From Ophiosphaerella korrae (lineage: Eukaryota > Ascomycota > Dothideomycetes > Pleosporales > Phaeosphaeriaceae), in the NCBI GenBank assembly GCA_028456385.1, contig JALNQF010000090.1, positions 109,315 to 173,314 on the forward strand: a DNA stretch of 64,000 nt, given 5' to 3'. Below are positions 2,688 through 51,143 of this stretch, piece after piece (within the stretch, counting starts at the first letter, position 1; each line of letters begins with the position of its first letter). The translations under genes and the position numbers were made by a program. The notes beneath the pieces are model-generated. The model searched no databases. It was given only the letters and a program-made list of their open reading frames with translations, and was not told the origin of the DNA.

Positions 2688-4292
2688 GTGGATATCAATC
2701 TACTCCTCGAGCCGCGGGGCTCTGAATCACCGGCAAGCAAGAAGAGTTCGACATCGGTAACCTCCAACTCAACTGCAACAACAAGGGCATACACAACTGC
2801 CCCCTCTGCTTACACTCAATCCCCTGCACATGGAGCCTCGCCCGCCTATGCTATTGGATCTCCCGCTTATGCACCACCGCTGTCCTATGGTCCAACATCT
2901 GCCTATCCTGCCCAGGTGCCAACATCTTCAGCCCCACACGGACCTGGACCTATGCTAGGCGGGCCAGTCTTGCCCGCCATCTCAGAGCTTCAACGACATC
3001 AGGATCCTTCATCACACCCTCAGTTTCGGCCCCTCTATACAGGCCACCCAGGCCACCCGGGCCTCCATCAAGGCCCCCCTGGAACTAATGGCTCTCCTCC
3101 TCAAGCTCTCAAGAGACAGGCTTCGCAAACCCCACTACCTGAGGAGAGTCCTGCAAAGAAGCAATCCAAGTGGACTCCAGAAGAAGATAATCTTACCATT
3201 GAACTACGAGGGCAGGGGATGAAGTGGGACGACATCGCCAAACGTCTGCCCGGCCGAAGCTCCATCTCCTGCCGTTTGCGGTATCAGAACTATCTCGAAA
3301 AGCGTGCGATTTGGGACGAAGAGAAAAAGAACAAACTTGCAAGACTCTATGCTCGGTATGTAAAACAAATTCCTGGACTACCTGGTGGCAGTCACAGCTG
3401 CGTGTGACTTTGCATGAATTTGGTCTATTGCCCCTTCCGTCGACAGTCATCCTAGACTTCGCACACCTTTGGTTTACACACCCCTCTTCCATCCCGTGTA
3501 CGAAACAAGGGTCAAAGATCTATCTAAGTGTAGGGCTAACATGCTACCAGATTCAAAGATCAGATGTGGCAGAAAGTAGCGACCGAAATGGGCATACCGT
3601 GGCGGTCTGCTGAGTCAATGCATTGGCAACTAGGAGAACAAGAAATGAGCGCACGTGCCAATGCTCCTGTCTTTCAGCTGCACCCGTCTGCGACAGGCAC
3701 GGGCCTCAGTTCCCCCTCGCAGGTGCCTGTTGTGCCTGCTCCGACCTCGCATGGCTTCACAGCTGCAAACGCCGCTCAATTGATGCCTAATCCACCGCCA
3801 ATGCCTGCGCAGCAACATCAGCCACCGCCAGGATTACCCCAAGGCCCACTGCACGGTTACCATCAACGAACAGATAGCGGCTCAAGCCAAGGGCGACGAA
3901 GGAACAGCTCATTTAGTCGCAGACGAGCAGACCCACGGTCGAGATCCAGCGTTCCACCTCAACTCAGCCAACCGTTGCCTCAGATACAAGCAGCTTCTGC
4001 AGAGGACTTGGTTAGTGGCGCTAGAACTGCACCTGTACCTGACCTTAAATCCGGTATGAAGCGCGAAGCCGATGCATCTAGCTACATTGAGCCGCTTCAG
4101 AGAAAAAGACGGGAAGATGAGTATGCAGGTTCATCGCGTTCAGAATTGGACACTCGTAGCCAAGGTTTCAGAAGTCCGGACCGATTATCACAACACAGCG
4201 GAACTGGAAGCATTAAGAGCATGAAACGGGAGCCAGAGGAAGCTGAGAGACCTTCCGCCATGCCATCCCCGCCCGCGGCTGCTAGGCCTTGA
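2688..4292 (+). CDS. Myb/SANT DNA-binding domain protein (start unresolved)
   Basis: Putative nuclear DNA-binding protein, about 469 residues if counted from 2688. Two exons, 2688-3355 and 3551-4292, flank a 195-bp intron (GTATGT donor, GCTAAC branch, CCAG acceptor) whose removal joins LYAR to FKDQMW in frame. After a Pro/Ser/Gly/Tyr-rich N-terminal half, a Myb repeat begins at KWTPEEDNLTIELRGQGMKW and continues through DDIAKRLPGRS and RLRYQNYLEK. A second SANT-like segment spans the intron (WDEEKKNKLARLYARFKDQM, then WQKVATEMG). The C-terminal half is low complexity, rich in Pro, Gln, Ser and Arg. The conserved-looking start VDINLLLEPRG is preceded by ATC, not ATG. The same frame is open back to a stop at 2610 without any ATG, so the true start lies in an unseen upstream exon or is non-AUG. 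Fungal relatives are Myb regulators; target genes are unknown. Confidence 0.8.
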
Positions 4293-7200
4293 TCGCTGTC
4301 TGACAAGACTAGGGATGTTTAGAAAGAGGTGGGAAGCACACAATTCGGGCAGGAACCGGAATAAGCATGGGTGTAATTGGAATATACAAGAGAGGGATAA
4401 GAAATAGATTCATGACAACCACTGGGATGCATAGTGGGAGGGCCATTTCACAGATCATAACCATGGGGCAGCATGATTGTGGCATTTAGCGTGGGTAGGG
4501 TCGGCATTTTGCTTGAACTTTTTTTTTTGTTTGCATTGCGAGAGTACACAAGATCATAGCGCTGGGTTCTGTTGGATTTTCTATCTTGCTTTTTTACTTT
4601 GTTTGTACTTGTTTGTTGTACACTCCATTGGTGCGGTAACGATTGTGCATTTTCAGCAGCGTTTCATTTCCTATTACTATACCATCATAAGAACCAGCGG
4701 GCATAGCGTGGCGAGGATATCCATCATATTACTTTGTAGTTTTTCCACCAAGCATCAGCCTGTCAGTATATTCAGTATTACACCTAGTATAGACTTTCCT
4801 CCCGCGTCATAGCAACTCAGCATTTTTTTTTTTCGCCAACGCATACACCTCCTGGCGACCAGCATTGTCCATACCATCTCGAGACTGCAACGTCGTCGAA
4901 GCCCGGCGGCCGAAAGCACCCTACTACTGAGTCACACACTTTGGAACTTGCAAACTGGTCGCCAGGTGAAAGTCAAGCATCCCATGCCCACAATCTGTGG
5001 CGGTGAACAGCATGGCAGAGGCTGGGAAGAAAATTTCCCACCGCCTTCGCAGTTCGTCTACCCCAGACCATCACTAATGACGTATGCAGCGGCGGCTTGC
5101 ATTCAAGTCGGTCAAAAATGCGGCTACGTGGCTCCTCTGGGCTGCACTGTCACCGCTTTCATCGATTGCAAGCAACCCTGAGAAGATGGTGTTGTGAGTG
5201 CGTTGTCATCCGCACAGCCTCATGCGGACGGTATGGTAGGTAGGGCCGACCGACATGGAGGGTGCATGAACTTGCTGCAGCCATGAACCCCATCAAACCA
5301 TGCCTGATTTATTTTAGAACGCCATGTCACTTTGACAGCGCAGACACCGGTTCATGGCCTCTAGTGACCCCACTTGAAAGCAGATTAAGCTGGTTGTAGG
5401 GATCGCCGACGTTCGCTGGTCATGTTATCGATACCTGGCATGCCGTCAGGATTGCACCCTGTCCCCTCCAGCTCCACCCCGTTTTTGTTCGGGGAAATTT
5501 TCTCGAACCTTCGGCCGCAAGGCTGAGCTTGTTACTCGTCCTGTACGCTTCCCCACTCGCATCTGAAACGCGGCGCAAGCATGACAATTTTCGCGGCTTC
5601 TTCGTCGCCAGCGCTCCACACCCCTCAAGTTGAGTGCTGCTTACCTTCCCTTGTTTTTCTAGAACATCCTCATGCTTTGGAGAAGGCGCTGCATGCGGTT
5701 ACTGTTGCGCTCTCTTGTGCATAGCGAGCGTTCGTCCTTTCAGGCAGATGTCCGGCATGAACATCAATGCCGAACAGAACCACCGAAGAACCTGGTGTAT
5801 GGTATTTCATGGAGCACGACAGACGAGACGAACATGCCATTTGTCCGATTTGCTCAATCTCCCGGGCTTACTTGCTTCTTCGGCAGAGGGTTACATGGCG
5901 GCCGCTACCACCACCTGCGAACATGTTCGAACGCGTAAAATTGTGCATGCGGGCCTTAGAACTAAACCATGCCCAATGTTGCGTAGGCAGGCCTTCGTGT
6001 GTAGTCGATACAGCTATCATCTGCTTCGAGAAGACTTGCCGATGCTCTGCAACCAGCATCGTCACCACATGTGTTCGCCCAAAACGAGGAACATGAGTCG
6101 CAAAATGTCTGACCCATCATCATCAGGTTGACACACGACAGTACACAAATCCCCACTTTTCTTTTCATATACACGAGGTTACCTCCCAGGGGAAGCGCAT
6201 CCGAATGAACCCATCTTTCCGCCGTGTGGCAGTGAACCAGTTAAATTGCGATCTGCCGGGATCGCCCATCTCGCACAAAACCGTTCTATGACATCCGAAA
6301 CACGACCGTTTTCGGCAGCGAACCATGGTTTGCAACGGATCCTGCCAACCAATTCGCATTATCCATGACCTAGCTCACTCTGACACAGGCTAGAAGGCCT
6401 AAGAAGAACCTTCTCTTGCCCCTTATCATTTCGGCAGTGTAGGCGTTATGTCGCCGACAAGGCACACCTTCCTTTACACTTCTCAAGAAGCATGCACAAA
6501 CAGGGACCAATGCAACCATCTTGAGACTGACCATGGTCGAAAAGAACGAGCATGCAGCCCTGAACGCTTGATGCTAGATCGTTACACACTCCCAACCAAA
6601 GCGAGTCAATTTGGGCCGCATCCGCAGTTCGCGCTGTGGATGCCTGTTGGCACGGCGTTCAAACAAGCCACCACGAGAACAAAAAACAATCATCACAGCC
6701 ACACGTACGATTCTTTCAGCTGCAATTGCATTTTCCATCAATAGCATTTGCATTGCTGAATGCAAATTGTTAGGCACCGACAAGAAATGAGCAATGTGCA
6801 TCCATCCCATGAATGCAAGACTTTGTCCTACTCAGGATGCGGGCCGCTAACAGATGCACATGATGTACAGTGCCTGATCGGCTGGGAACCCGCAGTTCAT
6901 CAAACCTTCCGGTGCGTGAACGTGCTTCAAGAACTAACTTGTCATTTGCAGCCATGACTCGGGCAACGAAACATCACGATCTCGGAATGATCGCTTCCTT
7001 GCCGACTAACCTGGTAGCGCCGATCGCGATTGCGCCTCCCAATAAGGAAAGTAAAGTGAGACGAAAAAAGACGGGAGATGATTCAAGCTAGGTGGAGGAA
7101 ATGAATCGTACAAACGGGTTAAGCGACTGCGTCGATAAAGGGAGATGAAGGGACAGGGCACCACGATGTCAGCGCTTCCACTGGCATCAAATGTTTCAAA

Positions 7201-18695: not shown

Positions 18696-19058
18696 TGGAT
18701 GGGTTGGGTGGCGGTGGGAGATGGGATCTAGATACAAACGAGAGGGTTTAGAAACGGTATATCGATATTATGCGGGTTTCGCGTTTCTGTCTTTCATCTT
18801 ATCATATTGGCACTGAGAGGGCACCTATGGAAACTAAGTGAACCTAGACCATCAAAAACAACACGTACTATCGCCGCCGCCCCACCGCATACTCATCGCA
18901 TACATACAAGATCAAAACAAGCGACAATATCATTCTCAACTACACACTCGTCTCCACCAACCGCACCTTTCAATCACCCTCCGTTCCACGATACCGCCCA
19001 TACGCTGCATACGGACTTCACTCATTAACAAAACACCACCTCTGGCAGAAGAACAAAC
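18696..19058. other. Intergenic region between convergent Sae2-like and precursor genes
   Basis: 3' flanks of two convergent genes. I see no gene here. The precursor's last exon could extend into this interval if the GTAAGT at its stop codon is used as a splice donor. Confidence 0.4.
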
Positions 19059-19600
19059 TTACTTGTACTTGCCATACAACAAATCAGCTCCTGCACTGTC
19101 GCGCGGCAGTTCATCGACGTCAGCCAAAGGGCCGAGGTCAGACATCTCAGAGTCGCGCTTCATGTTGAGTGCTAGTGAGTGGGATTAGATGTGTTGGGTC
19201 AAGGAGAAATGGAAGACTTGCTTGACTCCTGTTGTGTGGCGGCTGCGCCTTCGGCGGGGGGAAGGGGGTACGAGCCGTACTTTGCGTAGGGGATGTAGGT
19301 GATGTATTTTACATCGTCGGCCATGCTGCGCTTGCTCACTTGATCTACGGCGTTTAGCACCATGTTTTCCCCTTTGCGTGGCGACTCACCCATGTTCGCG
19401 GCTTCGGCAACCTCGGCAGGAGGAAGAGGATATGTGCCGTACTTTGCGTAGGGGATGTATGTGGTGTACTTCGCATTGTCTGCCATGCCCGAGTCCCTCT
19501 GCTTCTGCATGACGGACTTTGGGCTGCTATCGTCTGCAACCATCACTGGCGCGGCTATAGCCGTGGTGGCCAGGCTGGCGAGTAAGAGGATGTAATGCAT
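19059..19600 (-). CDS. Secreted Kex2-type repeat precursor peptide (candidate RiPP precursor)
   Basis: Predicted 163-residue secretory precursor from two exons, 19222-19600 and 19059-19171. Residues 1-17 (MHYILLLASLATTAIAA) form a signal peptide. Two Tyr-rich blocks, residues 44-63 and 98-117, agree at 18 of 20 positions and share YIPYAKYG(T/S)YPLPPAE. Segments are set off by basic sites: QR at 34-35, PRK at 74-76, KR at 90-91, KR at 131-132 and PR at 149-150. Three of them are followed by Asp-Ser (QRDSG, KRDSE, PRDSA) and one by Ser-Met-Ala-Asp. The 50-bp intron joins only if a GC donor (GCAAGT) is used; GT alternatives break frame. Kexin-cut repeat precursors beside UstYa genes make ustiloxin-, phomopsin-, asperipin- and victorin-type cyclic peptides. 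By inference this precursor supplies such cores, perhaps crosslinked through Tyr. It is divergent from the UstYa gene. The 3' end could include a further exon, since AAGTAAGT overlaps the stop. Confidence 0.8.
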
Positions 19601-20551
19601 GTTGTGTAGGGCCAGATGTCCAAGGTTGGATGGATTCTAGGTTGGGAACTCGAGGTGTCAGAGCTGTGTGTGGAGACTTGGTGCCTGCTGCTTGGGGCGG
19701 CCTTATGTAGACTCAATTACAAGCAAGTGTGCTCGAAATTGTGAGGTATGAGATTGTGATGGCGGGTAAGGTGTGGGGTGGTACACAGTGTGAATAGAGG
19801 TGATATGTGTTGCTGTGCTGCTCATAGGCTGTTGTGATCTGTTGCTATCCTTACGGGTGCGACTCATAATGTTACTTGGATTCGTGTGATTGAGTGATTG
19901 GCCGACTGAGACGTCGTCAGGTGATCTTAGAGTGTGTTATGGTTTGATATTTGGACAGTTATGTCTTCCATCTCTTGCCAAATAAGGCTTGCCAGGTCGA
20001 TTTGGAAAGTATATTGGTGTGACGACATGGGCAGCAAGACTCATTTAGATCTTGATACAAATTATATTCTCTAGGTTCCCACAGATATCTATATGTATGA
20101 TAGAAGTTGTATAGTTACGGTGATTCCGCGTGCCAGGCGGCAAAATACCTAGCGTCCATAGATTGTTGTACAAATACGGGGATGACAACAATCGACTATC
20201 GCCGGTAGTGTGCTCTCAGTATTCCAAATGCCATATGGTCAAGACGCATCAGAATCTATAGGTTCATTTCGTTTTGAATGGTGACGGGTCTGATGTATAA
20301 CGTTCCACCAGTAACGTGTTGACAGGCTTCAAGATCATCACGAGCAATCGACACCAAATTCGTTTGCTATCGCACTGTTTTTGATACGATATCATGTCAT
20401 ACTTGCGGGAGGCCTGGAACGCTTCGGCGTCATAACCCGCTTTTGTCACTAAGCCATAGGGCTTGATAAGTTTCTGTCCTTCAGACAAGTTGTTTTGGCA
20501 TAACCTACCCAGTCGCTGATTGCCTTCTCCAAGAAGCTCGCGTCATCTTGA
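19601..20551. promoter_or_regulatory. Divergent promoter region of the precursor and UstYa genes
   Basis: This 951-bp region separates two divergent start codons and contains no convincing coding frame. The head-to-head arrangement would allow co-regulation. No particular regulator site is claimed. Confidence 0.5.
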
Positions 20552-21651
20552 ATGGAAACTCTGTCCTCTTTTCAAGCCGCAATGTTCGCCAGTCTCTTCA
20601 GCGCTCAGCGCAAGCACCAACACACTCAACTACCTCGAGAAGAACCAGGAAGTCTTGACAGCGACACCCTTTTGCCACGGTCTTCAAGAGATGCACATGA
20701 GCCATCCAAGGCGAGTGCCTTTGACCGCCCCAATCGTGGCATTAGAACCGCCGTGAAGACTGTAGTGCTCAGCACTATTGTCTATCTTGGTGTAGGGCTG
20801 TGGTTGATGTTTAGCCTCCGGGCGGGTACTATCATAGCTGATGCAGATGAGTTTTGCATGCAACATATTTCGCGCTATTGTAAGCTGTTTTGAGAATGAA
20901 GTCAACGTATTGACTGACGAAAGCAGCGCCCGTTGTCAAGGAGGTGAAGCCTGGCTGGCACGACAAGTTGTTCAACGGGAGCTTCCTGCATCAGAACGTG
21001 TACAGGCAGTCAGCAGGCCCGGAGGTTGATGCGGCATGGAACGCTTTAGGAGTGAACTGTATGTATATATTGCCTACGGAAGTGCTTGTGCTGATCCATG
21101 GATTCCAGACAGAAGCGTTGCTATACCTATGGAAGAAGCCGAGGAATCGGGGCTTCGCCATGACCAAGTCAAGATTAGCCAGCAATACGGTGGTGGTTTT
21201 CCAGCAAACGTTGAAGGGTTGCATCATTTGCATTGTTTGGTACGGCCCCTTTCTAAATTAGGATCGCCGACTCTGTGCTAATATGGCGCAGGATCTCCTG
21301 CGCAAAACCCTGCATTGGAACTACGACTATTACCTGGCAGAGAAGAAAGGCGCGTTTGTGAATAGCGAATACATTGTGCGAGTCCATACGACGCATTGCC
21401 TGGACACCTTGAGGCAGGTGCTTATGTGCAATCCTGACGTCGGTGTTCTCGGCCAAGTGTGGTGGCGACCAGAGAACACGTCAAAGCCGATGGCATTTGT
21501 TGACTTTAACACGGAGCACCGGTGCCGCGATTATGAAAGTGTCAGGGTATGGGCAGAGGAGCATCAACTGCCTCCAGAGGAGCAGATGGACATGTCGCGG
21601 TTCTACGAGATGCCCAAGCCGGGCGACACTGTCTATTCAGAGATCCCTTAG
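20552..21651 (+). CDS. UstYa-family (DUF3328) oxidase/cyclase
   Basis: Membrane-anchored enzyme of the UstYa family, which catalyses oxidative cyclisation or chlorination and related steps on fungal RiPP and other peptide precursors. Four exons (20552-20879, 20927-21058, 21109-21239, 21292-21651) give 316 residues. A cytosolic-like N-terminus is followed by one transmembrane helix (about 67-89, VKTVVLSTIVYLGVGLWLMF). The family motif RYSP occurs at 108-111 and NGSF at 126-129. The two hallmark HxxHC metal-binding motifs are present: HHLHC at 192-196 and HTTHCLDTLRQ from 229, then LMCNPDVGV. Introns are 47, 50 and 52 bp and all junctions keep frame. The gene lies head-to-head with the repeat precursor, which is the basis for assigning it a peptide-modifying role. 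It converges on sen15 with a 136-bp gap. No tyrosinase, methyltransferase or second UstYa gene is visible nearby, so the pathway would be minimal or its other genes are elsewhere. Confidence 0.92.
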
Positions 21652-27118: not shown

Positions 27119-30100
27119 TCAAATACTCCCCCGCCCCCTCCCGCCTCGCCCCTCCAAATCCACCGGCCCCCCCGCAGCCCCAACCCCAAACCCAAACCCC
27201 TCGACGCCCTGCGCAAACACGCCATCATCCGCCATGCCCGGCGGCTCAACATTAAACGGGACAAAATAGCTGCTCATAGGATCAAAGAACGAATTGTTAG
27301 CCATACCCATGGCCTCGAGGTTCCAAAACGAGGCGTTGAAGTCGGTGGCGAGGTCGGGGAATGGGGAGAGGTCCATTTGCGGGTTGTGCGGGACAATGGG
27401 CGAGGTGGCGAGGAGGGGGAGGTGCGGGTGAGGGTGGTGCGTGTAGTCTTGGAGGAAGGGTTGGGGGTGATGTGCGGCGTAGTAGTTTGCGGGGTCGTAA
27501 GATGTTTCGAGGTCTGGGTGGTGGGGGATGGGGAGATGGGAGAGGGGGTGGTGGAGGTGTTGCTGGGGGTGTTGTTGCGGGAGCGACTGGGAGGGGCGGC
27601 GGGGGACGGAGGTTGGGGCGTCGGCTTTGGAGAGGGATTTGGTTTTGGTTTTGCGGGCTTGTTTGCGCGGGTCAGCGCGGGATGGGGGCGAGAGCGAGGC
27701 GAAGAATTCTTCGACGGATTGTAGGTCGGATTTTTGGCTGAGGACGGCGTCGGTGCCGGGTTCGTGGCTGTGCGGTTCCGCGGCGTCTTCGTAGTCCGTT
27801 TTAGACACGCCGTGGGGATAGCGGTCGAACCAGTCGCCGTATTGGAAGATGGTGCCCTTCTTCTTGTCGCCTTGTGAAGCTGGGCCCTTCTTCTGCGCAT
27901 CGGCGTGCTGCCGATAAAGGTCTTTGAGGTTCTCCGCGATGTAGTGGAACATTCCCCAGTACTTTTTCATTTTTGTCAAGTACTTGACATTATATGCCAG
28001 GTACTTCTTCGATTGTGCCTCGAGCTTCGGGTTCTTGGAAAACACGCCATGTACATGTACAGTTGATGAGAAGAAAGCAGTATAGCCAGCAAACGGTGCA
28101 ACAACATTGTGGTCCATGGCTTCGTTGATGAGTATCGAGATTTGGTTCGCCGCATCGAGCGCAGAACGAGCCGACTCGGTGAGAAAGTCGTGCGGCATGT
28201 CTTTCGGCGGCCTGCTTCCTGCTGTCGATGGCAGCGCAAAACGATGCATGAAGAGCATGATTTGTTGCCAGAGAATATGAAGGTATAAGAATGAATTTGC
28301 CGTTTTACCAATGGCATGGCTCTTAAGGTTCTCTGGTGTGTAAATGAGCATCTCAGGAAGTGATTCTCTAAACTCTCTGGCCTCCTTTTTGATGGCGTGG
28401 TGTATTGATTGCGACGACCACATCGGCTCTGCTTCCCGCTCTTTCCCGCCCATATTCATATATTTGATCAGCTTGCCCCAAATGCACACAAGGCGAATGT
28501 TATACGCTGTCACGCCCATGTTATCGCGCGCATTCGCTAGCTGGCCGCTGTCTGGCGGAACAGGATTCGGTACGTTGCCTTCGAGATTTTCTGTTGGCGC
28601 ATGGATCTCGTGAAGATACAGGTGTTCTTTGACCGGCAATTGCACCTCGATATACTGCTCGTGCACGAAAAGCGGTCGATCGGTACCAGAAGAGTTAAAT
28701 CGATCCATTAAGAAACAAGACCACATTGTCCGCCGTCGAATCTCGCGATCGGTAGCGCTAAGTATCTTTCGGTCGGCGTCAGTAGCAAGCGGGTCGTACT
28801 CGGTCTCCTTGTGTAATTGCAACGCGTATGCCATTCTCTGTGCCATGCCGCCAAACATCCAACTCCGTCCGCCCTGACATGTTCCAAATTCGTGTAGACC
28901 CAGTAGTAGATAAACGATCAAGATGGTAATGTTGGGCGAGTCGTACCGCTTAAGTGCAATTTCGCGCGCGCGCTCAGCCCAGTTGTCGCCCCGGAGAAAA
29001 CATGGCTCAGTCCTTAATTGTGGATGTGTGGAGAAGCGGGCTGATATAGCGCACATGGCCAGAGTGAGGACAGGGGGAACCTTGCCGGCTGCTAGTCTCC
29101 TCATAAAACTGGGCTTGTGGAGAAGAGGGTAGCTTTGGCCATATACATAGTCGAAATAGACTTCAGCCAGATGCTCCTGAATATCCTTGGAAGGCAAGCT
29201 TTCGGCGCCCTCTGTGAGCAACTTGCTGTCGTCTGAGTCCTTAGGGCGAGACGTGATGCCCACATCATCTGGATTGGATCCCTTTGACTTTGACCAGTCG
29301 TCCAGGTCGTTTCCAAAGGCTTCCTCGGCGATGCGCTTCTTGGTGGTTGGTGTTTTGGGTGGGGCTCCAGGGATGGCAGGCTTAACGACGGACCTGCCTA
29401 CGTTTGCAACGGACGGCAAGCTCTCCTTAGGAATCAGCTTGATAACGCGGTCCTCCATGCGCTTCAATCGCTTGTCCAACATAGACATGTAATCTGTTCT
29501 CGGCGCGGCTTTCCTAGTTGTCACTTTGTAGACGCAGGGTATCCTGCTGCGCAAACAATGCTTGCATGCCGGCTTCTCGCCTGAGCAGCGAATCTTTTTT
29601 CTGCGACACGCGATACACGCAAGCGGGAGTCTCTTCCTCTCCTTGCCAGCCTTTGTCTTCATTTCGCTCCACAACGGGGGATCCAGAGGGTCTTCCTTGC
29701 TGCGGCGCGAGGTGGTGGAGTGGTCTGTACCATCGTTCAGTCTGATGCCGAGAGCTCCAGCATCAGCCAGTGAGTCTCCGATGGCAAGCAGGCCCATGGC
29801 GGGCGCACTCTCGGGGCTGGTGTTGTTCCCATCCAGCATGCCGGCGCCACTCGCATTGTCCTCGCTCATGTGGCCGATGCTGCCGCGATGGTCCTGAAAG
29901 CCTGTCTCCATCTTGACGCCGTCGAATCCCGCACCGAATTGGTGGGCGTGGGCGTGGGCATAGGCGGCGTCGAAGTCAGCAAAGGAGCTCATCATGGCGG
30001 ACGGGCTGATTCCAGAGTGGTTGGGCGAGGAGCGCAGTTCCGGCAGGCCGAATTCGTTGAGCACCAGCGAGTCATCATGCTCGAAGCGGGAGTGGGAGGG

Positions 30101-30151
30101 CGTGGCCATGGAGGGTACGGATGCGGTTGCAGTTGCACCAGGGTCGGGCAT
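27119..30151 (-). CDS. Zn2Cys6 (Gal4-type) transcription factor
   Basis: Nuclear transcriptional regulator of 1010 residues in one uninterrupted exon. The binuclear cluster sits at residues 179-206 with spacing C-x2-C-x6-C-x6-C-x2-C-x6-C (starting ACIACRRKKIRCSGEKPACK), followed by a basic linker and a short coiled coil (MLDKRLKRMEDRVIKLIPKE). The fungal-specific middle homology region runs from about 330 (YFDYVYGQSYPLLHKPSF) to about 620 and includes WMFGGMAQRMAYALQLHKE. The C-terminal part is His/Pro/Gln-rich and ends in a Gly/Arg-rich tail. The cluster is internal, unlike the N-terminal cluster of many relatives. A 27-base A-run (30220-30246) lies about 70 bp upstream of the start. Target pathway is unknown; I do not assign a name. 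Confidence 0.9.
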   Translation of the reverse strand: MPDPGATATASVPSMATPSHSRFEHDDSLVLNEFGLPELRSSPNHSGISPSAMMSSFADFDAAYAHAHAHQFGAGFDGVKMETGFQDHRGSIGHMSEDNASGAGMLDGNNTSPESAPAMGLLAIGDSLADAGALGIRLNDGTDHSTTSRRSKEDPLDPPLWSEMKTKAGKERKRLPLACIACRRKKIRCSGEKPACKHCLRSRIPCVYKVTTRKAAPRTDYMSMLDKRLKRMEDRVIKLIPKESLPSVANVGRSVVKPAIPGAPPKTPTTKKRIAEEAFGNDLDDWSKSKGSNPDDVGITSRPKDSDDSKLLTEGAESLPSKDIQEHLAEVYFDYVYGQSYPLLHKPSFMRRLAAGKVPPVLTLAMCAISARFSTHPQLRTEPCFLRGDNWAERAREIALKRYDSPNITILIVYLLLGLHEFGTCQGGRSWMFGGMAQRMAYALQLHKETEYDPLATDADRKILSATDREIRRRTMWSCFLMDRFNSSGTDRPLFVHEQYIEVQLPVKEHLYLHEIHAPTENLEGNVPNPVPPDSGQLANARDNMGVTAYNIRLVCIWGKLIKYMNMGGKEREAEPMWSSQSIHHAIKKEAREFRESLPEMLIYTPENLKSHAIGKTANSFLYLHILWQQIMLFMHRFALPSTAGSRPPKDMPHDFLTESARSALDAANQISILINEAMDHNVVAPFAGYTAFFSSTVHVHGVFSKNPKLEAQSKKYLAYNVKYLTKMKKYWGMFHYIAENLKDLYRQHADAQKKGPASQGDKKKGTIFQYGDWFDRYPHGVSKTDYEDAAEPHSHEPGTDAVLSQKSDLQSVEEFFASLSPPSRADPRKQARKTKTKSLSKADAPTSVPRRPSQSLPQQHPQQHLHHPLSHLPIPHHPDLETSYDPANYYAAHHPQPFLQDYTHHPHPHLPLLATSPIVPHNPQMDLSPFPDLATDFNASFWNLEAMGMANNSFFDPMSSYFVPFNVEPPGMADDGVFAQGVEGFGFGVGAAGGPVDLEGRGGRGRGSI

Positions 30152-34165: not shown

Positions 34166-35161
34166 ATGTCTGAACTACCAACACTACTCTTTATCCCTGG
34201 AGCGTGGCACCAACCTACATGTTATAATCCAATAATCAAGCTCCTGGAAGAGCACCATCATTTGAGATGTGTCTCAATTACACTCCCTTCAACAACTGGA
34301 GATCCAAATGCAACCTTTAAAGACGACATTGACACTGCTCGCACAGCTATAGCTGGCGAGACAACCCGAGGGCGCGATGTAGTTGTTATCGCACACTCTT
34401 ATGGCGGCATGGTTGGAAATAGTGCAGTCAAGGGTTTTTCGAGACCGAAACGCAACGATGTAAAGAATCCTACTCCATCCTCAACTTCACCTCAAAGTAC
34501 AAACCAATCCCATGCAGGGTATGTTGTGGGTATCATTCTGATCGCCTCTGGATTCACTTTGACTGGACTTTCATTCATGGACCCGTTCTTCGGCATCCCA
34601 CATCCTGCCTGGCGCATTAATAAAGAAACTGGGTTTGCAGAATTGGTAGTGTCTCCAAGCAAATTCTTCTACCACGATGTGCCTGCAGACGAGGCAGCAT
34701 ACTGGGTGTCGCAGCTCACTCCACAAAGTCTCAAGGCACTATTTGAGGGCGGCGAACATGCATACGCAGGCTGGATAGATGTGCCCACGTGGTACGTTGG
34801 AACAATTGAAGATCAAGGGTTGCCGGCGGTGTTGCAACGAATGCAGATTGGAATGGCCAAGGAAATGAGCGGTTCTATCGAGCATAGAGAATTACAATCC
34901 AGTCACTCACCGTTTTTGAGTCAGCCAGAGGAGGTGGTGGGGGTTCTAAGGGAGGCTGTTGAAGCGTTCACTGGGAAAATAGTTGAAGGACAGCGAGCAT
35001 TGGGAAAAGGAGGTAATGAGATATTTGTACCAGCGGTGAAGATCTTGCAACCTTCCTCATGGTTTAGATTCGGGTTGCCGCTACTTGTTGGCCATCTGAT
35101 AGGAAGAGGAATCATTACCTTTGGCTGGTGTAGAAGACTGTGGAGGTATTGTTTTAGCTGA
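34166..35161 (+). CDS. Alpha/beta hydrolase
   Basis: Single-exon hydrolase of 331 residues, start ATG at 34166 in AAACATGTC. The N-terminal strand and oxyanion region read LLFIPGAWHQP. The nucleophile elbow is AHSYGG with Ser78. A candidate acid is Asp216 (VGTIEDQG) and the histidine is probably His247 (SSHSPFLSQPEEV), all at positions typical of the AB-hydrolase superfamily. A C-terminal hydrophobic segment (about 299-321, WFRFGLPLLVGHLIGRGIIT) may anchor the protein to a membrane. A Ser/Thr/Pro-rich insert (about 92-117) follows the nucleophile. Substrate is unknown; related fungal enzymes act in secondary metabolism or detoxification of esters and lactones. Confidence 0.85.
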   Translation: MSELPTLLFIPGAWHQPTCYNPIIKLLEEHHHLRCVSITLPSTTGDPNATFKDDIDTARTAIAGETTRGRDVVVIAHSYGGMVGNSAVKGFSRPKRNDVKNPTPSSTSPQSTNQSHAGYVVGIILIASGFTLTGLSFMDPFFGIPHPAWRINKETGFAELVVSPSKFFYHDVPADEAAYWVSQLTPQSLKALFEGGEHAYAGWIDVPTWYVGTIEDQGLPAVLQRMQIGMAKEMSGSIEHRELQSSHSPFLSQPEEVVGVLREAVEAFTGKIVEGQRALGKGGNEIFVPAVKILQPSSWFRFGLPLLVGHLIGRGIITFGWCRRLWRYCFS

Positions 35162-38625: not shown

Positions 38626-41600
38626 ATGGCGTCTGACAGAGACATTCTCCCAGCTTGGTAAGTTACATTGAATCAAGCACCAATCTGTATCTTTGGCCAT
38701 TATAAAACTGGCTAACATGGCGTTCAATAGGGTCAAGCCTGCGCACTACGCTCTGTCCATCCACGACATCGAATTTGGCGGCAAGTTCGGTTATCAGGGT
38801 ACTCTCAACATCACCACACAAATCAACAAGGACGATGGTTTCAGTGACCTTGTTCTTAATGCCTACCAGCTTAAGATTCAAAGCGCGGAACTGAAGGCTG
38901 GTGATGCCACCAAATCGGCTAAGAATATCTCATACGATGAGAAGCGACAGCGTGTTACACTCAATTTTGGAGAGAAGATCAACTATTCTGGGGAAGCTTC
39001 TTTGGAAGTCAAGTTTGAAGGAACCATCAACAACGTCTGTCTGCTCAAATAAAAAAATACCAAGAGAGAGATTGCTAAATTACAGTACAGGTCATGGCAG
39101 GCTTCTACCGCTCCAAATACACACCCAAAGGCGAAGTCCCAGCTTCAGTTGCTAAGGACAACGAGTTCCACTACATGTTCAGTACTCAATTCGAGTCCTG
39201 TGACGCCCGCCGCGCATTCCCCTGCTTCGACGAGCCGAACCTGAAGGCGACATTCGATGTTGAGCTTGAAGTACCAAAGGATCAAGTCGCACTCAGCAAC
39301 ATGCCCGAGAAGGATATCAAACCAAGCAAGCGCGAGGGTTTCCATACTGTCGCCTTCGAGCGCACACCTGTTATGTCAACATACTTGTTAGCATGGGCCA
39401 TTGGTGACTTTGAGTATGTTGAGGCATTCACAGAGCGTAAGTATAATGGAAAGAGTATACCAGTGAGGGTTTACACCACGAAGGGTCTAAAGGAGCAAGG
39501 CCGCTTTGCACTGGATAACTGTCATAAGGTTGTGGATTACTTCTCAGAGGTCTTCCAAATCGACTACCCTCTTCCAAAGGTCGACCTGCTGGCAGTGCAC
39601 GAATTCGTAAGCCGTTCCTCCATATGCTATGGATCGGGCTAATTCATTAGCCCATCATATGTATACCTATTCATTATTTTGTGTACGACGCTGACCAGTG
39701 CATTTTAGTCGCACGGTGCTATGGAGAATTGGGGTCTTATTACCTACCGGTAAGTTCTTTGAATAGTTGCTCTGTGGTGAACCATGCTTACACAATTTCC
39801 TAGAACTACCGCAGTTCTTTTCGACCCTGCAACATCGGCAGACAGCTACCGCAACAGGGTAGCGTATGTTGTCGCCCACGAGCTTGCCCACCAGTGGTTT
39901 GGCAACCTTGTCACAATGGACTGGTGGAGTGAACTTTGGCTCAACGAGGGCTTTGCTACTTGGGTCGGATGGTTCGCCATCGATCACTTGTATCCTGGTA
40001 TGATTTCACGACAATGCCTTCAAAACTTTTCCTAACATGATTCATAGACTGGAATGTATGGGGACAGTTTGTCGTACGTCACAAATCCCGAGGTATATAT
40101 TATCTGGTCAAAAACTGACAAGTGTTTAGACTGATTCGGTGCAACAAGCCTTCGCACTAGATGCCTTGCGAACCTCTCACCCGATTGAAGTTCCCGTTTA
40201 CGACGGCCTCGAGGTCGATCAAATCTTTGATCACATCAGCTACCTCAAGGGCAGTTCCGTTATCCGCATGCTGAGTGCTCATCTTGGCGAGAGAGTTTTC
40301 CTTCAGGGTGTGGCCGACTACCTGAAGGCGCATCAATATTCGAACGCTACTACCAATGACTTGTGGTCTGCGCTAAGCAAGGCTTCTGGACAGGATGTAA
40401 ATAGCTTCATGGACTTCTGGGTACGCAAGATTGGGTTCCCAGTAGTCACCGTCACCGAAGAGTCTGGCCAGATTGGACTGCGCCAACAACGATTCCTCCT
40501 CTCCGGTGACGTCAAGTCAGAAGAGGACCATACAACATGGTGGATCCCACTTGGTCTTCATACTGGATCCTCTGCTTCAGCTGCCTCGCTGCATGATTCA
40601 TCAGCTCTAACTAAGAAGGAAGACACCGTGAAAAATATTGACAATGGTTTCTACCAGATCAACAAGAATCTCACTGGCTTCTACAGGACTAACTATCCAG
40701 CTGAGCGACTCAAGAAGCTTGGTGAGGCTCGCGCACAACTCACAGTACAAGACAAGATCGGTGTCATCGGTGATGCATATGCGAATGCAGTTGCTGGATT
40801 TGGTTCCACGGCTGGCCTCCTTGCCTTGGTGGAGCGTTTCTCAGATGAGTCTGACTATTTAGTGTGGTCACAAATTCTCACCAACATTGGAAATGTTCGC
40901 AGTGTTCTATCTGGCAGCGACGATATCAGCGAGGGGTTGAAGAAGTATCACCTCAAGTTGATCACTCCCGCTGTGGAAAAGATTGGCTGGGATTTCAAAA
41001 CTGGCGAGGGCTTCTTGGCCGGCCAGCTGCGTTCTAGTCTCCTCCTGTCTGCTGGTATGGCTGGCCACCAGGCGACTGTGGACGAGTCGTTGAAGCGATT
41101 TGATTCACACGTTGCAGGGGAAAAGTCAGCCATCCACCCATCATTACGAAGGGCGATCTTTGCTACCGCGATAAGGCACCGCGGGGAGTCCGCTCTCAAA
41201 GCCATCCAACAAGAATATCTCTCAACTACCTCCATCGATGGCAAGGAGATCTGTCTCCAGTCACTCGGTCGCGTACAGACCCCCGAGCTTGCAAAGGAGG
41301 TCATGTCCTTTATCTTCTCTGACGGGGTCGCCATGCAGGACAAGCACTCCGGAACTATCGCGCTGGCCAGTAACAGCAAAGTGCGCAACGAGGTTTGGAA
41401 CTTTGTCCGTGAAAACTGGGAATCCAAGGTGAATCCTACGCTAAGCGGTAACATGGTCGTCTTAGAGCGCTTCCTACGCTTCGGCCTGAATAAGTTTGCG
41501 GATGAGAAGATTGCTGATGAGATTGCTGCTTTCTTTAAGGATAAGGATACGCGCGGCTACGACAAGGGTCTTGAAGTCATTGACGATACTATCAGGTCAT

Positions 41601-41671
41601 ATGCGAAGTATGCGAAGAGAGACGAGGCGGTTGTTCGTGAGTGGCTGAAATCTAATGGCTACCTGTCTTGA
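38626..41671 (+). CDS. M1-family zinc aminopeptidase (puromycin-sensitive / Ape2-Aap1 type)
   Basis: Zinc metallopeptidase removing N-terminal amino acids. Seven exons (38626-38657, 38731-39034, 39091-39606, 39709-39749, 39804-39997, 40048-40073, 40130-41671) give 884 residues from [19 protein letters not shown]. Hallmarks are GAMENWG at 287-293, the zinc site HELAHQWFG at 323-331 with the third ligand Glu346 in [13 protein letters not shown], and the transition-state Tyr409 in [14 protein letters not shown]. The ERAP1-type C-terminal helical domain follows. All six introns are 50-102 bp. Intron 2 uses a weak GTCTGT donor, required by frame. Upstream of the ATG the frame stays open for another 117 codons with a basic, Ser/Arg-rich, acid-poor sequence, suggesting a mitochondrial isoform from a non-AUG start or another exon. 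Confidence 0.93.
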
Positions 41672-43840: not shown

Positions 43841-44098
43841 CGATGACGCGTAATATAGGGCTAACTAACAAAATTACATTACGTTAATTCTTGTAGGTCT
43901 ACTATAGCACTACAAGTAAGCCTATATCAAATTTAAAGCTCGATTTTAGTCTATATACACTAAATTTTAGAGTTTTTTTAACTTTTAATACTCCTTAGCG
44001 CTTACTAGCGCCGCGCTAGTATACCGCTAGTAGTAACACGCTAGTAATAAGCTACTAGCTCTAGTAGTAAAAGTTTACTTTAAGATTTATTTTATATA

Positions 44099-44103
44099 AG
44101 AAA
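44099..44103 (+). repeat. Left target-site duplication AGAAA of element copy 1
   Basis: AGAAA directly precedes the 5' LTR and recurs directly after the 3' LTR (51139-51143), the 5-bp duplication expected of Ty3/Gypsy integrases. Confidence 0.85.
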
Positions 44104-44533
44104 TATTATAGTAGTAATAGAAGAGCTATAAATAGAACTAATTAGTCCTATAATAGATAACCTAGACTTATATAACCTAGAAAGATAGGAACTTAATTAG
44201 GAGACTATATATAACTAGGATACCTAGAGTAATCTATAATCTATAGACTCTTAGTATTAATAGATTATAGATTAAAGTAATCTATAATCTATTAGTCTTA
44301 GTAACTATAGATTAATAGATTATATCGTGTATATAGTTAGTAGTAATATATATTATTAGGATAGTATTAGTAATTTAATTATTAACTACAAGTAATAATA
44401 CTAAAGATAGTTATAAAACATCTTCTATTATTTATAGCTTATTATAGATTAAAATATAAACTCTTACTATTACTTTTTAATCTACTAATAACTCTTAGGT
44501 ACTAAGAAGTTAACCTTAGTAACACTTACAATA
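44104..44533 (+). repeat. 5' LTR of copy 1
   Basis: 430 bp, colinear with the 3' LTR and with both LTRs of copy 2. The terminal TG has become TA by RIP. It contains inverted repeats around TAATCTATAATCTATAG, able to form hairpins. Confidence 0.9.
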
Positions 44534-45514
44534 CTTTACTAATTTAGTTATTATAAGAAGTAAAGCGTAAGTAGCGTATAGTCTAGCTAATACGATAGTA
44601 GAAAGTTTAATAAGAAAAAAAGCTAAGGTACCTATAAGTAGCTATAACTTAGACGATACTATATAGAAATAAATTAAAAACTACTTAAATAACTTAATCT
44701 CTAAAAAAAAAGATATAAAAATAGTAATTAAAGCCTTAGAAATATAGAATAAAGAACTATAAGACTACTTAAAGTAAAATAAAGTATAAATTAAAGCTAT
44801 TATTAAAGGATAGAACTAGATAGAAATAATTACTTAACGCCTAAAAATAAGTACAACAAAGAAACTACTAAAGATACCTATTCTTAAGAAGTTTAATAAA
44901 ATAAGAGAGAAACTAAGACTCTTTATAGCTTTAGTATAACTCTAGATAGATATATAAGTACTATACTTTAATATAGAAGAAAAAAAGGTTATATATATTA
45001 GACTATATCTTAAAAAGACGTAATAAGATAGTATAAGCTTTACTAGATAGATTATACAATATATTTACTAATAACCTAGAAAGATAAAACTAGAGCTATT
45101 TTTAGAAGTTATAAATACTTTGCTAAATAAATAAGAGTAGTATTTAGGGATATAGATATTACCTAATAAGCTAAAGAAAAACTCGAGAGGCTTATATAAA
45201 GAAAGAGTATACCTAAGTATATATTATAGTTTAAATAACTATTATAAAATATAGAGTAGAATAAATTAGCTCTTATATTATAATTTAAATAAGAACTAAA
45301 TAAGAAAATCTAATATAAGATAATTTATATAGAAAAACCTAGAATACTAAAAGCTCTAAAGTAATAAGTAATCTAAATTAATAATAATCTTTAAGAATAG
45401 AAAAAGAACAAGTATAGTAATTAAACTAGAAACTAAGATACTAGAGACTCTATAATCCTTAACGTAAATAAAGATAAGAAAAAAAAAAGAATAAAGACTT
45501 TACGTACTTTAATT

Positions 45515-45660
45515 ATAGTAAGAAAAGCTACTATATAAGAGATTACTAATTATAAAAAAAAAAGATATAGTATATTATAAATATAGAAAACTAGGATACT
45601 TTATAAATAGTTATAAAAATAAAGACTATAAAAAAGATAAAGAAGCTTAGTTAAAGATAA
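45515..45660 (+). pseudogene. Decayed gag zinc knuckle, copy 1
   Basis: The frame reads YYKYRKLGYF, where a CCHC knuckle would have Cys and His. Each ligand has become Tyr, the result expected from G-to-A (TGT to TAT) and C-to-T (CAT to TAT) changes. Confidence 0.7.
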
Positions 45661-47479
45661 CTAAAAATAAGAAAGAAGTACTATAAGTATAAGCTAAACC
45701 TTAGAAAAAAGTAGCTAAGAGTAAAGAAATATAATATATAATACTCTATTAGACCTTTTATTATAAAGATAACTACTATATATATCTTTCTAGTAAAGAG
45801 GAAGTAAGATACTTCTTATAATAAAGAAATAGAATAGTAGTAATAAAAGAAAGAATAAAAGTATAACTAGAAGAGATAGTATATATAATAGACCTACTAA
45901 TAGAAGACTTAGAGAGGAGAAAACTCTTAGTACTATTAATTTAAGCTAAAGAACTAGTACTAGATAAAGAAACTACTATAGCTTCTTCTAAAAGACTATA
46001 AAAAAGTAAGAGATAAATTAGTATAAAAGATATAGAGTATACCTAGCTAAAAACATATAGCTATAATAGCTATATAATAATAGATATAAAAGAATAAAAT
46101 AAAAAATAGAAGTTTATTTAAAAATACTTACTAGTTATAAGTTTAGAGAAAGTATACAAAGACTAAAAAGAGTATAATCCTAAAGAAATAAAGTTTATAC
46201 TATTCTAAGAATAGATAAAGTAATATATAGTTATAGTAAGAAGAATACCTATAAAAAAAGAGTAGTAGTACCTAGTAAGAAAGACGTAATAGATTAATAA
46301 AGCCTATATACTAAGAATACTAGTAGTATACTACGTCCTAATAATAGATACACCTAGAAAAGATAAATACTAGAAAGGAGATAATAAGATAATAAATCTA
46401 AAATATCTAGTATACTTTAAAGTATTATAGATATTATACTTAGATAAGAATTATATAAAATATAGGAACCTAAAAGTAAATAATAAAGTATAGCCTATAA
46501 GAAGAAAAGGCTATAACTATATAAGAGTAATTCTAGTAGAAGATATTTAAGGATAGGAAATTATCCTAAAAGATAGATATATAGTAATAAGACCTAGTCT
46601 AAAACAATCTAAAAAATATATCCTAAGAAGACTATAGTATAAATATATATATAATAAATATCTAAAATATAAAGAATATAAACTTAAAGTAAAGCTATAG
46701 CTTTAGAAAGATAGATAATTTATAAAACTACCTAAGTAAAAATAGCTAAAAGGTATAAGAGGCCTATATATTATAAAGATAAGTACTTACTAAGAAAAGA
46801 AAGTATAATTAATAATAGATAGTAAAGCTATAAAAAACTTTATATTAAAGAAGTTTATAGAAATATAAAGAATACGTTATATAATAAAGAAATATCCTTA
46901 ATAATTAAGTATAATTAAAGGAAAACTATTCTAAGAACTAATTAGGTTTAAAATAGTTCCCTCTATACTTAAACTAGAAAAGATAACAATAAAGAATATA
47001 GTTATAGATATAATAATAATTAATAATAAATAAAATATAATACTAAGAATACTATAGTTATAAATAACTAACCTATATATTAATTAGAGGATAGGAAAGA
47101 TTAACTACTATAGAATAAATATATTAAAGGCTAATATAAACACCTATAAAGGAAAATTCCTAAAAGAATATAAGAAATAAGAGGAATAGCTTATAAAGCC
47201 TAAAGACTACTTCCTAGAATATTAGCTATAGAACTTAGTAATAGAACTAAAAGAAGATAAAAACGTAGAATAAAGCCTAGTCTACTAAAAAATAGAAGAA
47301 AAGTTAAAAATTAAACAAGTATTTATTAAAAACGTACTAAAAAAAGGATAGATAAGAGAATCTAAGTCCTTAGTAGTATATAGACTTATCTTTATAGATA
47401 AAAAAAAAATAAGTAATAAGAGACCTTATATAGATTTTAGAAAGACTAACGTAATTATAAATAAAAACTAATACCTACT

Positions 47480-47800
47480 ACTATAAATAGATATAATATA
47501 AAATAAGCTATAAAGAGTAAAAATCTTTACAAAACTAGATATCTAGAATACTTACTACTAAATTAGAATTAAAAAAGGTAATAAATAGAAAATAGCGTTT
47601 AAAACACAATATAGACTATATAAATATATAGTTATACCTTTTAGCTTAATAAATATACTAGTAGCCTTCTAAGAAAAGATAAATATAGTACTAAGAGAGT
47701 ACTTAAACGTATTTATATTTATATACCTAGACAATATCTTTATATTCTTAGAAATAAAAGAAGAATACGTATAATATATATATAAAGTACTAGAAAAGCT
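47480..47800 (+). pseudogene. Reverse transcriptase core, copy 1
   Basis: Residual RT motifs are visible in one frame with stops: FTKLDI, RLYKYIVIPFSLIN and IYLDNIFIFL. The last is the YxDD active-site box with the second Asp changed to Asn. Spacing fits a Ty3/Gypsy RT palm domain. Confidence 0.8.
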
Positions 47801-48199
47801 AGTAAAAAGTAAATTATTCCTTAAAATAAGAAAATATAAGTTCTATACAAAGAAAATAGATTTCCTTAGATTTATTATTAAACTAGGAAAAATTAAGATT
47901 AACTTTAAAAAGATTAGATTAATTAATAAATAGCTAATACTAAAGAACCTAAGAGAAGTATAATAATTTTATAGCTTAGCTAACTTTTATAAAAAGCTAA
48001 TAGTAAGATAGTCTAAAGATATAAAACTAATAATAAAACTTATAAAAAAAGATATACTATTTAAATAGATAAAAGAATATAATAAAGTATTTAATAAAAT
48101 TAAAAAGAAGTTTATAGAGAACCTAGTTATTAGAATATATAACCTAGACCTACTAGTAATAGTAAAAATAGATATATCTAACTTAGTCTATAGAATAGT

Positions 48200-48420
48200 A
48201 CTAATACAAGAAGACCTAGAGACTAAAAAGGAATACTTAGTTAAATACTTCTCTAAGAAGATAAAAATAGTAGAACTTAACTACTTAATCTATAATAAAG
48301 AAATACTAGTAATCTATAAAGTATTTAAGTAATAGAGAGTATACTTATAAAAAGTAAAGTACTAAATAAAAGTCTATATAGACTATAAAAACTTTATAAA
48401 GTTTATAATAAATAAAAAAC
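48200..48420 (+). pseudogene. RNase H region, copy 1
   Basis: KEYLVKYFSKKI and VELNYLIYNKEILVIYKVF match the RNase H segment that follows RT in Ty3/Gypsy elements. Confidence 0.7.
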
Positions 48421-48699
48421 TATTATAATAATATATAAGATAGTAAGAATTCCTATTAATATTTAATATAGAAATTATATATATATAAAAGAAAGATAAC
48501 TAATTTATAGATACTCTTAGTAAAAGACTAGACTTATAAGAAGAAGTAAATACTACTAGAATAGTTCTAGTTAAGAATAAAAAAAGATACTTAGTCCTAA
48601 ATATACCTAAAATAGCTATAACACTTAAAAGAAAAAATAGCGAGCTAGATAAATAGATTTAGAAAATAACGTAAAAAGTATCTAAAAAAATATAGAAAC

Positions 48700-49560
48700 T
48701 AGAAATCTAAAAAGGACTTATATAAGCTTATAGAAGAATATATATCCTAAGAAAGATCTAAAGAGAATTTATATAATAATTCTATAAATTACTAGTATAT
48801 AGATACTAAAGGATTAATAAAACCTTTAATAGGTTACTATAAAACTACTATATTCTAAGAGTAAGATAGCTAGTAATAGAAGTACTATAAGACTATATAG
48901 AATACTAGAGAAATAAGTATAGTAGATACGCACTATATAGAATATTATAACTAGTAGAAGTACTAGAATAACTATAAAGAATTATTATAATAGACTTTAT
49001 TATAAAGCTACCTAAGTCTAAAGACTTAATATTAGGAGTTAAGTATAATAGAATCTTAATAATAGTAGATAAACTTATAAAGTACTTATACTTTAGACTA
49101 TATAAAAAAAAAAGTAGGATAGAGGTTACTATATACTAGATCTTAGGAATAGTAATTAGCTAATATAGACTACTAGATAAGATTATTATAGATAGAGATA
49201 TACAATTTATATTAAAACTATAGAGAAAAATTATAGTATAACTAGGAATTAAATATATAATATTAATAGTATACTACCTATAGATAGATAGATAGTTAGA
49301 ATAAATAAATTAAATAGTAGAATAATACTTAAGATACTACCTTAACTATAACTAGAATAATTAGGTATAGCTACTACCTATAGTATAGTTAGTATATAAT
49401 AGTGTAAAAAATATAGTAATAGAAATATTACTCTTCTTTATAAACTATAGATTTAACCCTAGTATATATAGAATACTAAGATTAGAGATATCTTAGTTCC
49501 TAAAAGGAAAAAACTTCGCTAATAGACTTAAAGAGATATATAACTAACTAAAATAAGATA
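48700..49560 (+). pseudogene. Integrase region, copy 1
   Basis: IIIIDFIIKLPKSKDLILGV and VDKLIKYLYF represent the catalytic core start. IIDRDIQFI is the second acidic motif. Many stops interrupt the frame. Confidence 0.72.
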
Positions 49561-49849
49561 TAGAATTCTTATATAATTAAATAGTAAAGTACTATAATAA
49601 GAGATATAAAGAGGGACCCTAATTTAAAAAAAAAGAAAAAGTATAGTTAGTATAAAAGAATATTAAAAGTAAAAGACTAAGCTCTAAATTAGACTATATT
49701 AAGATAGAACTATATAAGATTAAAAAAGAAGTTATACTAGTTATATTTAAATTAAAGCTACTAAATAAGATAAAGATATACTTAACTTTCTATATAGTAC
49801 TACTTAAGATAGTACTATAAAACGTAGAACTACTAGTATATAAAGTAGA

Positions 49850-49990
49850 TATATATAGAGAATAAGAAGAATAGAAAGTTAAGAAAATCCTAGTATATTA
49901 GTTCTATAATAGGAGAAACTATTATTTAGTAAAATAGATAAGTATAGACGAAAAAAAGGAAACTATAAGAAGAAATATAGAAACTAGAAG
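49850..49990 (+). pseudogene. Chromodomain-like integrase tail, copy 1
   Basis: KVKKILVY, then FYNRRNYYLVK and IDEKKETIRRN, resembles a chromodomain core (strand, YLVKW-like aromatic segment, helix) placed directly after integrase, as in chromoviruses. The match is degraded, so this is a moderate call. Confidence 0.55.
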
Positions 49991-50694
49991 ATAACCTTAA
50001 CTACTCTAAGAAACTAGAAGACTTCTAAAGTTAAAACTCTCTAGAACGCCTAGTAATAAACTAAGAAAACTAATATTACTACTATTAGATAGAGAGGCGA
50101 TAGGAGTATATAACGTAAGACTTACTATAATAGTATTAAACGCCTTATCTAAGTCTAGCTTAGCTTCTAAAGCTACTAACTACTTAGTTAATTTTTTATT
50201 ATTTAAGGCTTTTATCTTATAAAAGTAAGAGAGATAAGTTTAATTCTCTACTAACTTACTCTATATAAGCTCTTAGATTTACTTATACTTAGCTTTAGCT
50301 TCTACAATTTAAGATAGTAATTTCTCTTAAGTCTAGTTAATAGCTTTCCCTATTATTATTAAGCTTAGATATAAGAATAAGTATAATAAATATATACTTA
50401 GAAAGAGAAATACTAGATATATTATAAGAACTACGTATATTTATATAAATATATACCTTATAAGCCTTACTATTATTTATAGAAATAATATAAAGAAGAG
50501 ACTTAGGATTTAACTTAAGAGAAGTATAATAAAAATAAAGAAATATCTTAATACTATTATATAACACGTAATTAGTAAGAAGATATTAATAATATATAGA
50601 AGAAATAACTATAAAGAGTAATAAAGAACTATAGATTAATAAAGAAAGTAAATTAATAACTTTAGCTCTAAGATAGATAAACGAGAACTTACTT

Positions 50695-50708
50695 AAAAGA
50701 AGAGATAG
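50695..50708 (+). other. Polypurine tract of copy 1
   Basis: AAAAGAAGAGATAG lies immediately 5' of the 3' LTR, the plus-strand primer site position. Confidence 0.65.
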
Positions 50709-51138
50709 TATTATAGTAGTAATAGAAAAGCTATAGATAAAACTAATTAGTTTTATAATAGATAACCTAGACTTATATAACCTAAAAGGATAAGAACTTA
50801 ATTAGAAGACTATATATAACTAAAATACCTAGAGTAATCTATAATCTATAAACTCTTAGTATTAATAGATTATAGATTAAAGTAATTTATAATCTATTAG
50901 TTTTAGTAACTATAGATTAATAGATTATATTAAGTATATAGTTAGTAGTAATATATATTATTAAGATAGTATTAGTAATTTAATTATTAACTATAAGTAA
51001 TAATACTAAAGATAGTTGTAAAACATCTTCTATTATTTATAGCTTATTATAGATTAAAATATAAACTCTTACTATTACCTCTTAATCTACTAATAACCCT
51101 TAGGTACTAAGAAGTTAACTCTAGTAATACTTACAACA
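50709..51138 (+). repeat. 3' LTR of copy 1
   Basis: 430 bp, nearly identical to the 5' LTR except for transitions. It ends in ACAACA and is followed by AGAAA. Confidence 0.9.
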
Positions 51139-51143
51139 AGAAA
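51139..51143 (+). repeat. Right target-site duplication AGAAA of copy 1
   Basis: Direct copy of 44099-44103. Confidence 0.85.

Follow-up and report, generated by a model that had tools for sequence, protein, structure and literature searches.

A divergent precursor and UstYa gene pair with tyrosine-periodic cores, a candidate dikaritin-type RiPP locus in Ophiosphaerella korrae

The window analysed here, the whole 64,000-nucleotide stretch of Ophiosphaerella korrae DNA, corresponds to positions 109315-173314 of contig C890 in a genome assembly of 63.0 Mb and 974 contigs. Two genes lie head to head within it, separated from start codon to start codon by a divergent intergenic region of 951 bp (19601..20551). 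On the minus strand is a gene for a putative secreted repeat precursor of 177 aa (19600..18970, three predicted exons), and on the plus strand a UstYa/DUF3328 gene encoding 316 aa (20552..21651), whose four exons are predicted at 20552-20879, 20927-21058, 21109-21239 and 21292-21651. The UstYa protein matches PF11807 with 174.3 bits (Pfam cut-off 25) and carries two HxxHC motifs, HHLHC at 192 and HTTHC at 229, so that both the Pfam score and the double HxxHC marker described in PMC12048977 place it in the UstYa family. It has one N-terminal hydrophobic segment, residues 71-89 being the most hydrophobic 19-mer; a comparison with PDB returned nothing up to E 10, and no relative was found in the prokaryote and virus collections. 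The preliminary description had proposed a secreted precursor head to head with a UstYa protein bearing both HxxHC motifs, the two-gene locus being set between housekeeping genes, and this arrangement was confirmed by hydrophobicity and by Pfam, which identified the flanking genes, one to each side, as SAE2 and Sen15.

As to the surroundings, Pfam was run on 13 of the 17 ORFs in the window that reach 190 codons and on one shorter frame (14 in all), and yielded matches to F-box pof12, SAE2, Sen15, DUF2985 and a GH85 fragment, together with a Zn2Cys6 transcription factor (27119-30151), an alpha/beta hydrolase (34166-35161) and an M1 peptidase (40268-41671, about 19 kb from the locus); the remaining ORFs matched nothing. 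Among these 14 ORFs, a set that intron-split genes could escape, there was no match to a transporter, to a methyltransferase or to a further UstYa, and a tyrosinase search gave no match on contig C890. The Zn2Cys6 factor and the hydrolases could conceivably be partners of the pair, though Sen15 intervenes. From about 44000 to 64000 of the window the G+C content falls from about 0.5 to 0.20-0.23; this very AT-rich block, the edge of which lies about 22 kb from the locus, resembles those of two-compartment fungal genomes. The 5.8S rRNA (RF00002) gave no match in the assembly while bacterial controls were positive, and the rDNA may be missing.

The precursor opens with MHYILLLASLATTAIAA (19550..19600, minus strand), a signal-peptide-like N-terminus in which the 11-residue Kyte-Doolittle means starting at residues 1-14 range from 1.2 to 2.1; judged by hydrophobicity, the signal peptide demanded of dikaritin precursors is present. 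Its exons are predicted at 19600..19222, 19171..19063 and 19015..18970. Intron 1 (19221..19172, 50 nt) is a predicted GC-AG intron, chosen since the KR and the third core then stay in frame, and intron 2 (19062..19016, 47 nt) is a predicted GT-AG intron (GTAAGT...AAG). The TAA at 19059, at which an earlier frame ended, sits within the GTAAGT splice donor, and predicted removal of intron 2 leads into exon 3, which extends to 18970, encodes ...LLYGKYNPYAAYGRYRGTEGD and adds a third core. With another acceptor (58 nt for intron 2), the protein would end in NVWAVSWNGG, in which the Tyr register is lost, and this variant was not adopted. As had been claimed, basic cleavage sites are present, at Q34-R35, R75-K76, K90-R91, K131-R132 and P149-R150, with KR, KR and RK lying between the cores. 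Pfam analysis of the 177-aa precursor revealed no match at E 0.01; DUF4329 (E 0.1) and RSV_NS2 (E 0.22), obtained with a 163-aa form, were both under the cut-offs and were regarded as chance. Core words of 8-11 letters matched no paper in one open-access library, which leaves absence unproven; in this library, shorter core words of 5-6 letters led to no fungal RiPP paper by title, and the hits of further words were unrelated.

The three cores, YTTYIPYAKYGTY, YITYIPYAKYGSY and YGKYNPYAAYGRY, contain five Tyr each at a spacing of exactly three residues and fall into three separate fragments bounded by dibasic sites. As linear peptides they have calculated [M+H]+ values of 1603.768, 1601.789 and 1585.743, respectively, and the shorter YAKYGTY and YAKYGSY of 865.409 and 851.393, although the true ends of the peptides may differ. 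Repeat unit 1 (MADNAKYTTYIPYAKYGTYPLPPAE, 19412..19486, minus strand) and repeat unit 2 (MADDVKYITYIPYAKYGSYPLPPAE, 19250..19324, minus strand) both have five Tyr, one per third residue. Core 3 (18991..19076, minus strand), the codons of which lie in 19076..19063 and 19015..18991 with intron 2 between, has diverged from units 1 and 2 and lacks their Pro-rich end. When the units were shuffled within bounds of our own choice, the exact three-step Tyr spacing was obtained in 8, 5 and 3 of 20,000 shuffles for units 1, 2 and 3, respectively. Over 25 codons, units 1 and 2 display 10 synonymous and 4 non-synonymous differences (dS 1.18, dN 0.07, Fisher p 1.5e-5), a contrast suggesting that the protein sequence has been kept, with small counts and a possible contribution of codon preference. 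The two near-identical Tyr-rich units of the preliminary description and their Pro-rich ends are thus present, but the count of cores rises to three after predicted splicing, the gene ends at 18970 instead of 19059, and the Pro-rich end does not extend to the third core.

A second pair of this kind was found on contig C457. In a tblastn comparison of the window UstYa with the window and 20 other loci, the best outside match was C457 (L020, E 3.6e-54), followed by the UstYa of C318 (L015, E 1e-13, 25%), which is paired with a precursor of unrelated core. The C457 UstYa, as predicted after splicing, has 305 aa, is identical to the window UstYa at 142 of 305 aligned residues (46.6%), carries HHLHC and HVTHC, and matches PF11807 with 188.6 bits. 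Head to head with it, at a distance of 1,054 bp, lies a predicted precursor of 71 aa in a signal-peptide frame, which reads MRFTLTLLAFVASAIAAPIAAPEADAQGTYATYGTYDNPPPPPPPAGGYASYGSYPPPAGGYATYGTYKKE with an acceptor chosen among three tried and contains three YA[TS]YG[TS]Y units of three Tyr each. Its units are joined by Pro/Gly spacers and have no dibasic site between them, the one KK lying near the C-terminus; Kex2 excision is therefore not a common feature of the two precursors. In the predicted proteins the element common to both is YAxYGxY; the Pro-rich tail, the MAD leader and the dibasic sites are not shared. The previously proposed core YIPYAKYG(T/S)YPLPPAE accordingly stands as part of the repeat unit, and as a core is narrowed to YAxYGxY. 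The C457 pair is flanked by Plus-3 domain and ferric-reductase-like genes, unlike the SAE2 and Sen15 genes of the window. A UstYa subfamily and a YAxYGxY precursor hence co-occur twice, in the same orientation and in different surroundings, which is the strongest functional support that we obtained from sequence; it suggests that like enzyme pairs with like core and strengthens the dikaritin-like precursor/UstYa pairing put forward earlier.

The specificity of the motif was assessed at two scales. In six-frame translations of 241 kb, made up of 1-43 kb of the window and 20 loci of 9.9 kb each (19 of which surround UstYa genes), YAxYGxY occurred 5 times and PYAxYGxY 3 times, the five YAxYGxY places being the three of the window and two unsplit ones at C457. 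Genome-wide, the DNA pattern of YAxYGxY gave 12 matches versus 20 for the reversed control, so that the bare motif is not enriched and the notable point is only its clustering, 5 of the 12 lying in two loci. A DNA pattern for YG[ST]YPxPA matched once, in C457, the PLPPA of the window lying outside this pattern by design. Apart from its own locus, the precursor matched C334 (E 0.46) and C368 (E 4.3) in the genome. The C368 match, a 300-codon frame without a leading hydrophobic segment, was rejected despite a nearby UstYa gene, and C334 is the sole locus without a UstYa match among the 20 loci scanned. The two divergent intergenic regions have in common a 14-mer, TCTCCAAGAAGCTC (window 20526-20539; C457 locus 3112-3125), and three 12-mers versus a shuffled mean of 0.08, which may represent a regulatory site or chance.

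PF11807 matches number at least 27 in the genome, at no fewer than 21 places; all of these 21 loci were inspected, and a repeat precursor accompanies UstYa at at least six of them (window, C457, C318, C40, C230 and C723), head to head in all six. Six is a minimum, C457 itself having escaped both repeat scans; for C318, C40, C230 and C723 the signal-like N-termini were read by eye, and genes may lie in between. The C318 precursor (from 5838, plus strand; UstYa 5066..4599, minus strand) has a signal-like start and units IFESDGELQVNNADASSYAQ ending in SSYAQ and separated by R or KR. At C40 (L023; precursor from 6319, plus strand; UstYa 5003..4809, minus strand), the precursor (CIIKYGADAEKR) contains two units DGE(A/S)C(I/V)IKYGADAE with KREA between them and with two Cys and one Tyr in each. 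The precursor of C230 (L025; from 3560, minus strand; UstYa 4733..5125, plus strand) contains three RR-led units (T/A)APE(L/V)ILPDAG without Tyr, and the UstYa chemistry there would therefore have to differ. At C723 (L022; precursor from 6837, plus strand; UstYa 4821..4654, minus strand), the precursor gene, divergent from the UstYa gene, encodes Lys/Gly-rich repeats with KGKGK-rich units, RR sites and HHKGKGK stretches; di-His repeat types with DUF3328 have also been described (PMC7329392).

Asperipin-2a of Aspergillus flavus is formed from the core FYYTGY by the aprA/aprY/aprT/aprR cluster, in which the single UstYa homologue AprY is essential and enough for the oxidation, ethers being formed from the Tyr side chain to the beta-carbon (PMC6514808). 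The window locus resembles this system, which has no tyrosinase among its four genes, in its one UstYa, its YxxY core and its secreted repeat precursor (PMC6514808, PMC7329392). It differs in the window core, where five Tyr follow one another strictly every third residue (C457 has three Tyr), and in that no reductase or transporter was found among the ORFs scanned beside it. With ustiloxin and phomopsin it shares a signal peptide, repeats beside KR and a UstYa with double HxxHC (PMC7329392, PMC12048977). Those pathways, however, are described with short Tyr-x-Ile cores (YAIG, YVIG, YVIP), many repeats, two or five DUF3328 genes and a tyrosinase (PMC7329392), whereas in the window one UstYa accompanies three units, and the contig gave no tyrosinase match; the ustiloxin units are tridecapeptides or tetradecapeptides around YAIG, i.e. 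longer units with a short core (PMC6514808). The plant burpitide selanine A (VLFYPSY), with a YxxY spacing, a Leu-Tyr-Tyr di-ether and a macrocycle like that of asperipin-2a, is made by BURP-domain proteins and not by UstYa, and is a chemical analogue instead of a relative (PMC11253845). Asperipin-2a and selanine A each have a C-terminal YxxY pair (YTGY and YPSY, respectively), and the window cores repeat this spacing in register.

The precursor logic is also that of the Kex2-processed repeat proteins (KEPs) with a DUF3328 neighbour. The KEP survey (PMC7329392) reports 838 types and 2560 stand-alone KEPs, with a DUF3328 neighbour for 1758 of 7878, counted most often at the next gene; DUF3328 was enriched beside repeat precursors, and Tyr was found in the repeats of 65.6% with such a neighbour versus 38.2%. 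Its cut (three or more tandem repeats, each 8 aa or longer, bounded by KR/KK/RK/RR) would be reached by the window precursor only with exon 3 accepted and the diverged core 3 counted as a repeat, and is not reached by the C457 paralogue. Under the dikaritin rule given for Venturia inaequalis (perfect or imperfect repeats of at least 10 residues with kexin sites between them and a nearby DUF3328; PMC9632046), the window locus is counted and C457 is not. The older five-gene definition of dikaritin clusters (tyrosinase, methyltransferase, several DUF3328, transporter or peptidase) leaves the window out; functional clusters without some of these genes, and a later definition by DUF3328 alone, are given in the same source (PMC12048977). 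None of the conserved core words presented in PMC6339444 equals the window core, which the tables of that paper and of the KEP survey may still list.

We consider it probable, at roughly 0.7, that the two genes constitute a minimal dikaritin-type RiPP pathway in which the tyrosines of YxxY are cross-linked by UstYa during secretory transit. The precursor would enter the secretory pathway, where a membrane-anchored UstYa, with its HxxHC domain in the lumen, would oxidise Tyr of the YAxYGxY elements and link neighbouring YxxY tyrosines, most likely, by analogy with asperipin-2a, through a phenol ether to the beta-carbon. Kexin would then cut at KR, RK and QR, and other peptidases would trim the units to cross-linked secreted peptides; one match to a proprotein-convertase P-domain is present in the genome. 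A reaction other than cross-linking is possible, since UstYa homologues desaturate residues in phomopsin biosynthesis (PMC10512285) and carry out hydroxylation or chlorination elsewhere (PMC12048977). A more specific and rather doubtful extension is that the tyrosine ladder represents a new peptide class, in which one UstYa would link Tyr(i) to Tyr(i+3) along YxxYxxYxxYxxY so that each core would acquire two to four rings, either fused or consecutive; by our count, the ring closed over i,i+3 by a para-phenol ether to the beta-carbon has 17 members. If such a ladder were formed, C457, with three Tyr per unit, would carry a shorter one, perhaps kept within a longer chain.

Kexin processing could instead release linear, unmodified secreted peptides with a signal or surface-active function, the adjoining UstYa doing something else. 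The basic sites and the convertase gene are compatible with this, as is the proportion of KEP genes lacking a DUF3328 neighbour (78%, versus 22% with one; PMC7329392), but the pair occurs twice in the genome with a matching core and a matching UstYa, and we regard purely linear products as unlikely. An alpha-pheromone is a particular form of this explanation, and neither the XA/XP (Ste13) dipeptides after KR nor the known core, the two criteria for ascomycete alpha-pheromones, are present in the precursor, which has KR-SM and KR-DS and lacks the Pleosporales motif PYG[L/M]P[I/V]G as given in PMC6339444. The exact DNA pattern of that motif yielded 0 genome matches versus 1 for its reversed control, so that it did not pick out the fungus's own pheromone either.

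To a similarly small degree we can imagine that the product is a small secreted Tyr/Pro-rich polypeptide, cross-linked at YxxY by UstYa within or between chains, e.g. as wall or surface material. The C457 precursor, with its spacers and its three units free of intervening dibasic sites, would suit such a product, as would the long units of the window precursor and the placing of core 3 within the 45 residues that follow its last KR; the KR, KR and RK between the window cores speak against it, as do the short cores on which UstYa homologues with described products act (PMC6514808, PMC10512285). Finally, exon 1 alone comprises 133 codons in a region with many chance frames, and one intron is GC-AG, yet the synonymous/non-synonymous contrast, the Tyr register in three cores and the paralogous pair make it very improbable that gene prediction created the precursor gene, or just its extra exons, as an artefact beside an orphan UstYa.

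Five dikaritins had been reported as of a 2022 review, though UstYa-linked precursors are common (PMC10512285). The locus also illustrates how such genes are lost in annotation, its third core lying behind a stop codon in a splice donor and its C457 paralogue having been missed by repeat scans. As a compact test case, it combines a single precursor and a single oxidase with a strictly periodic Tyr core and, in the same genome, a paralogous pair whose core is shorter. Two questions can be put to it directly: is one UstYa able to act on successive Tyr of a YxxY array, and do UstYa proteins work ahead of kexin cleavage, or in its absence?
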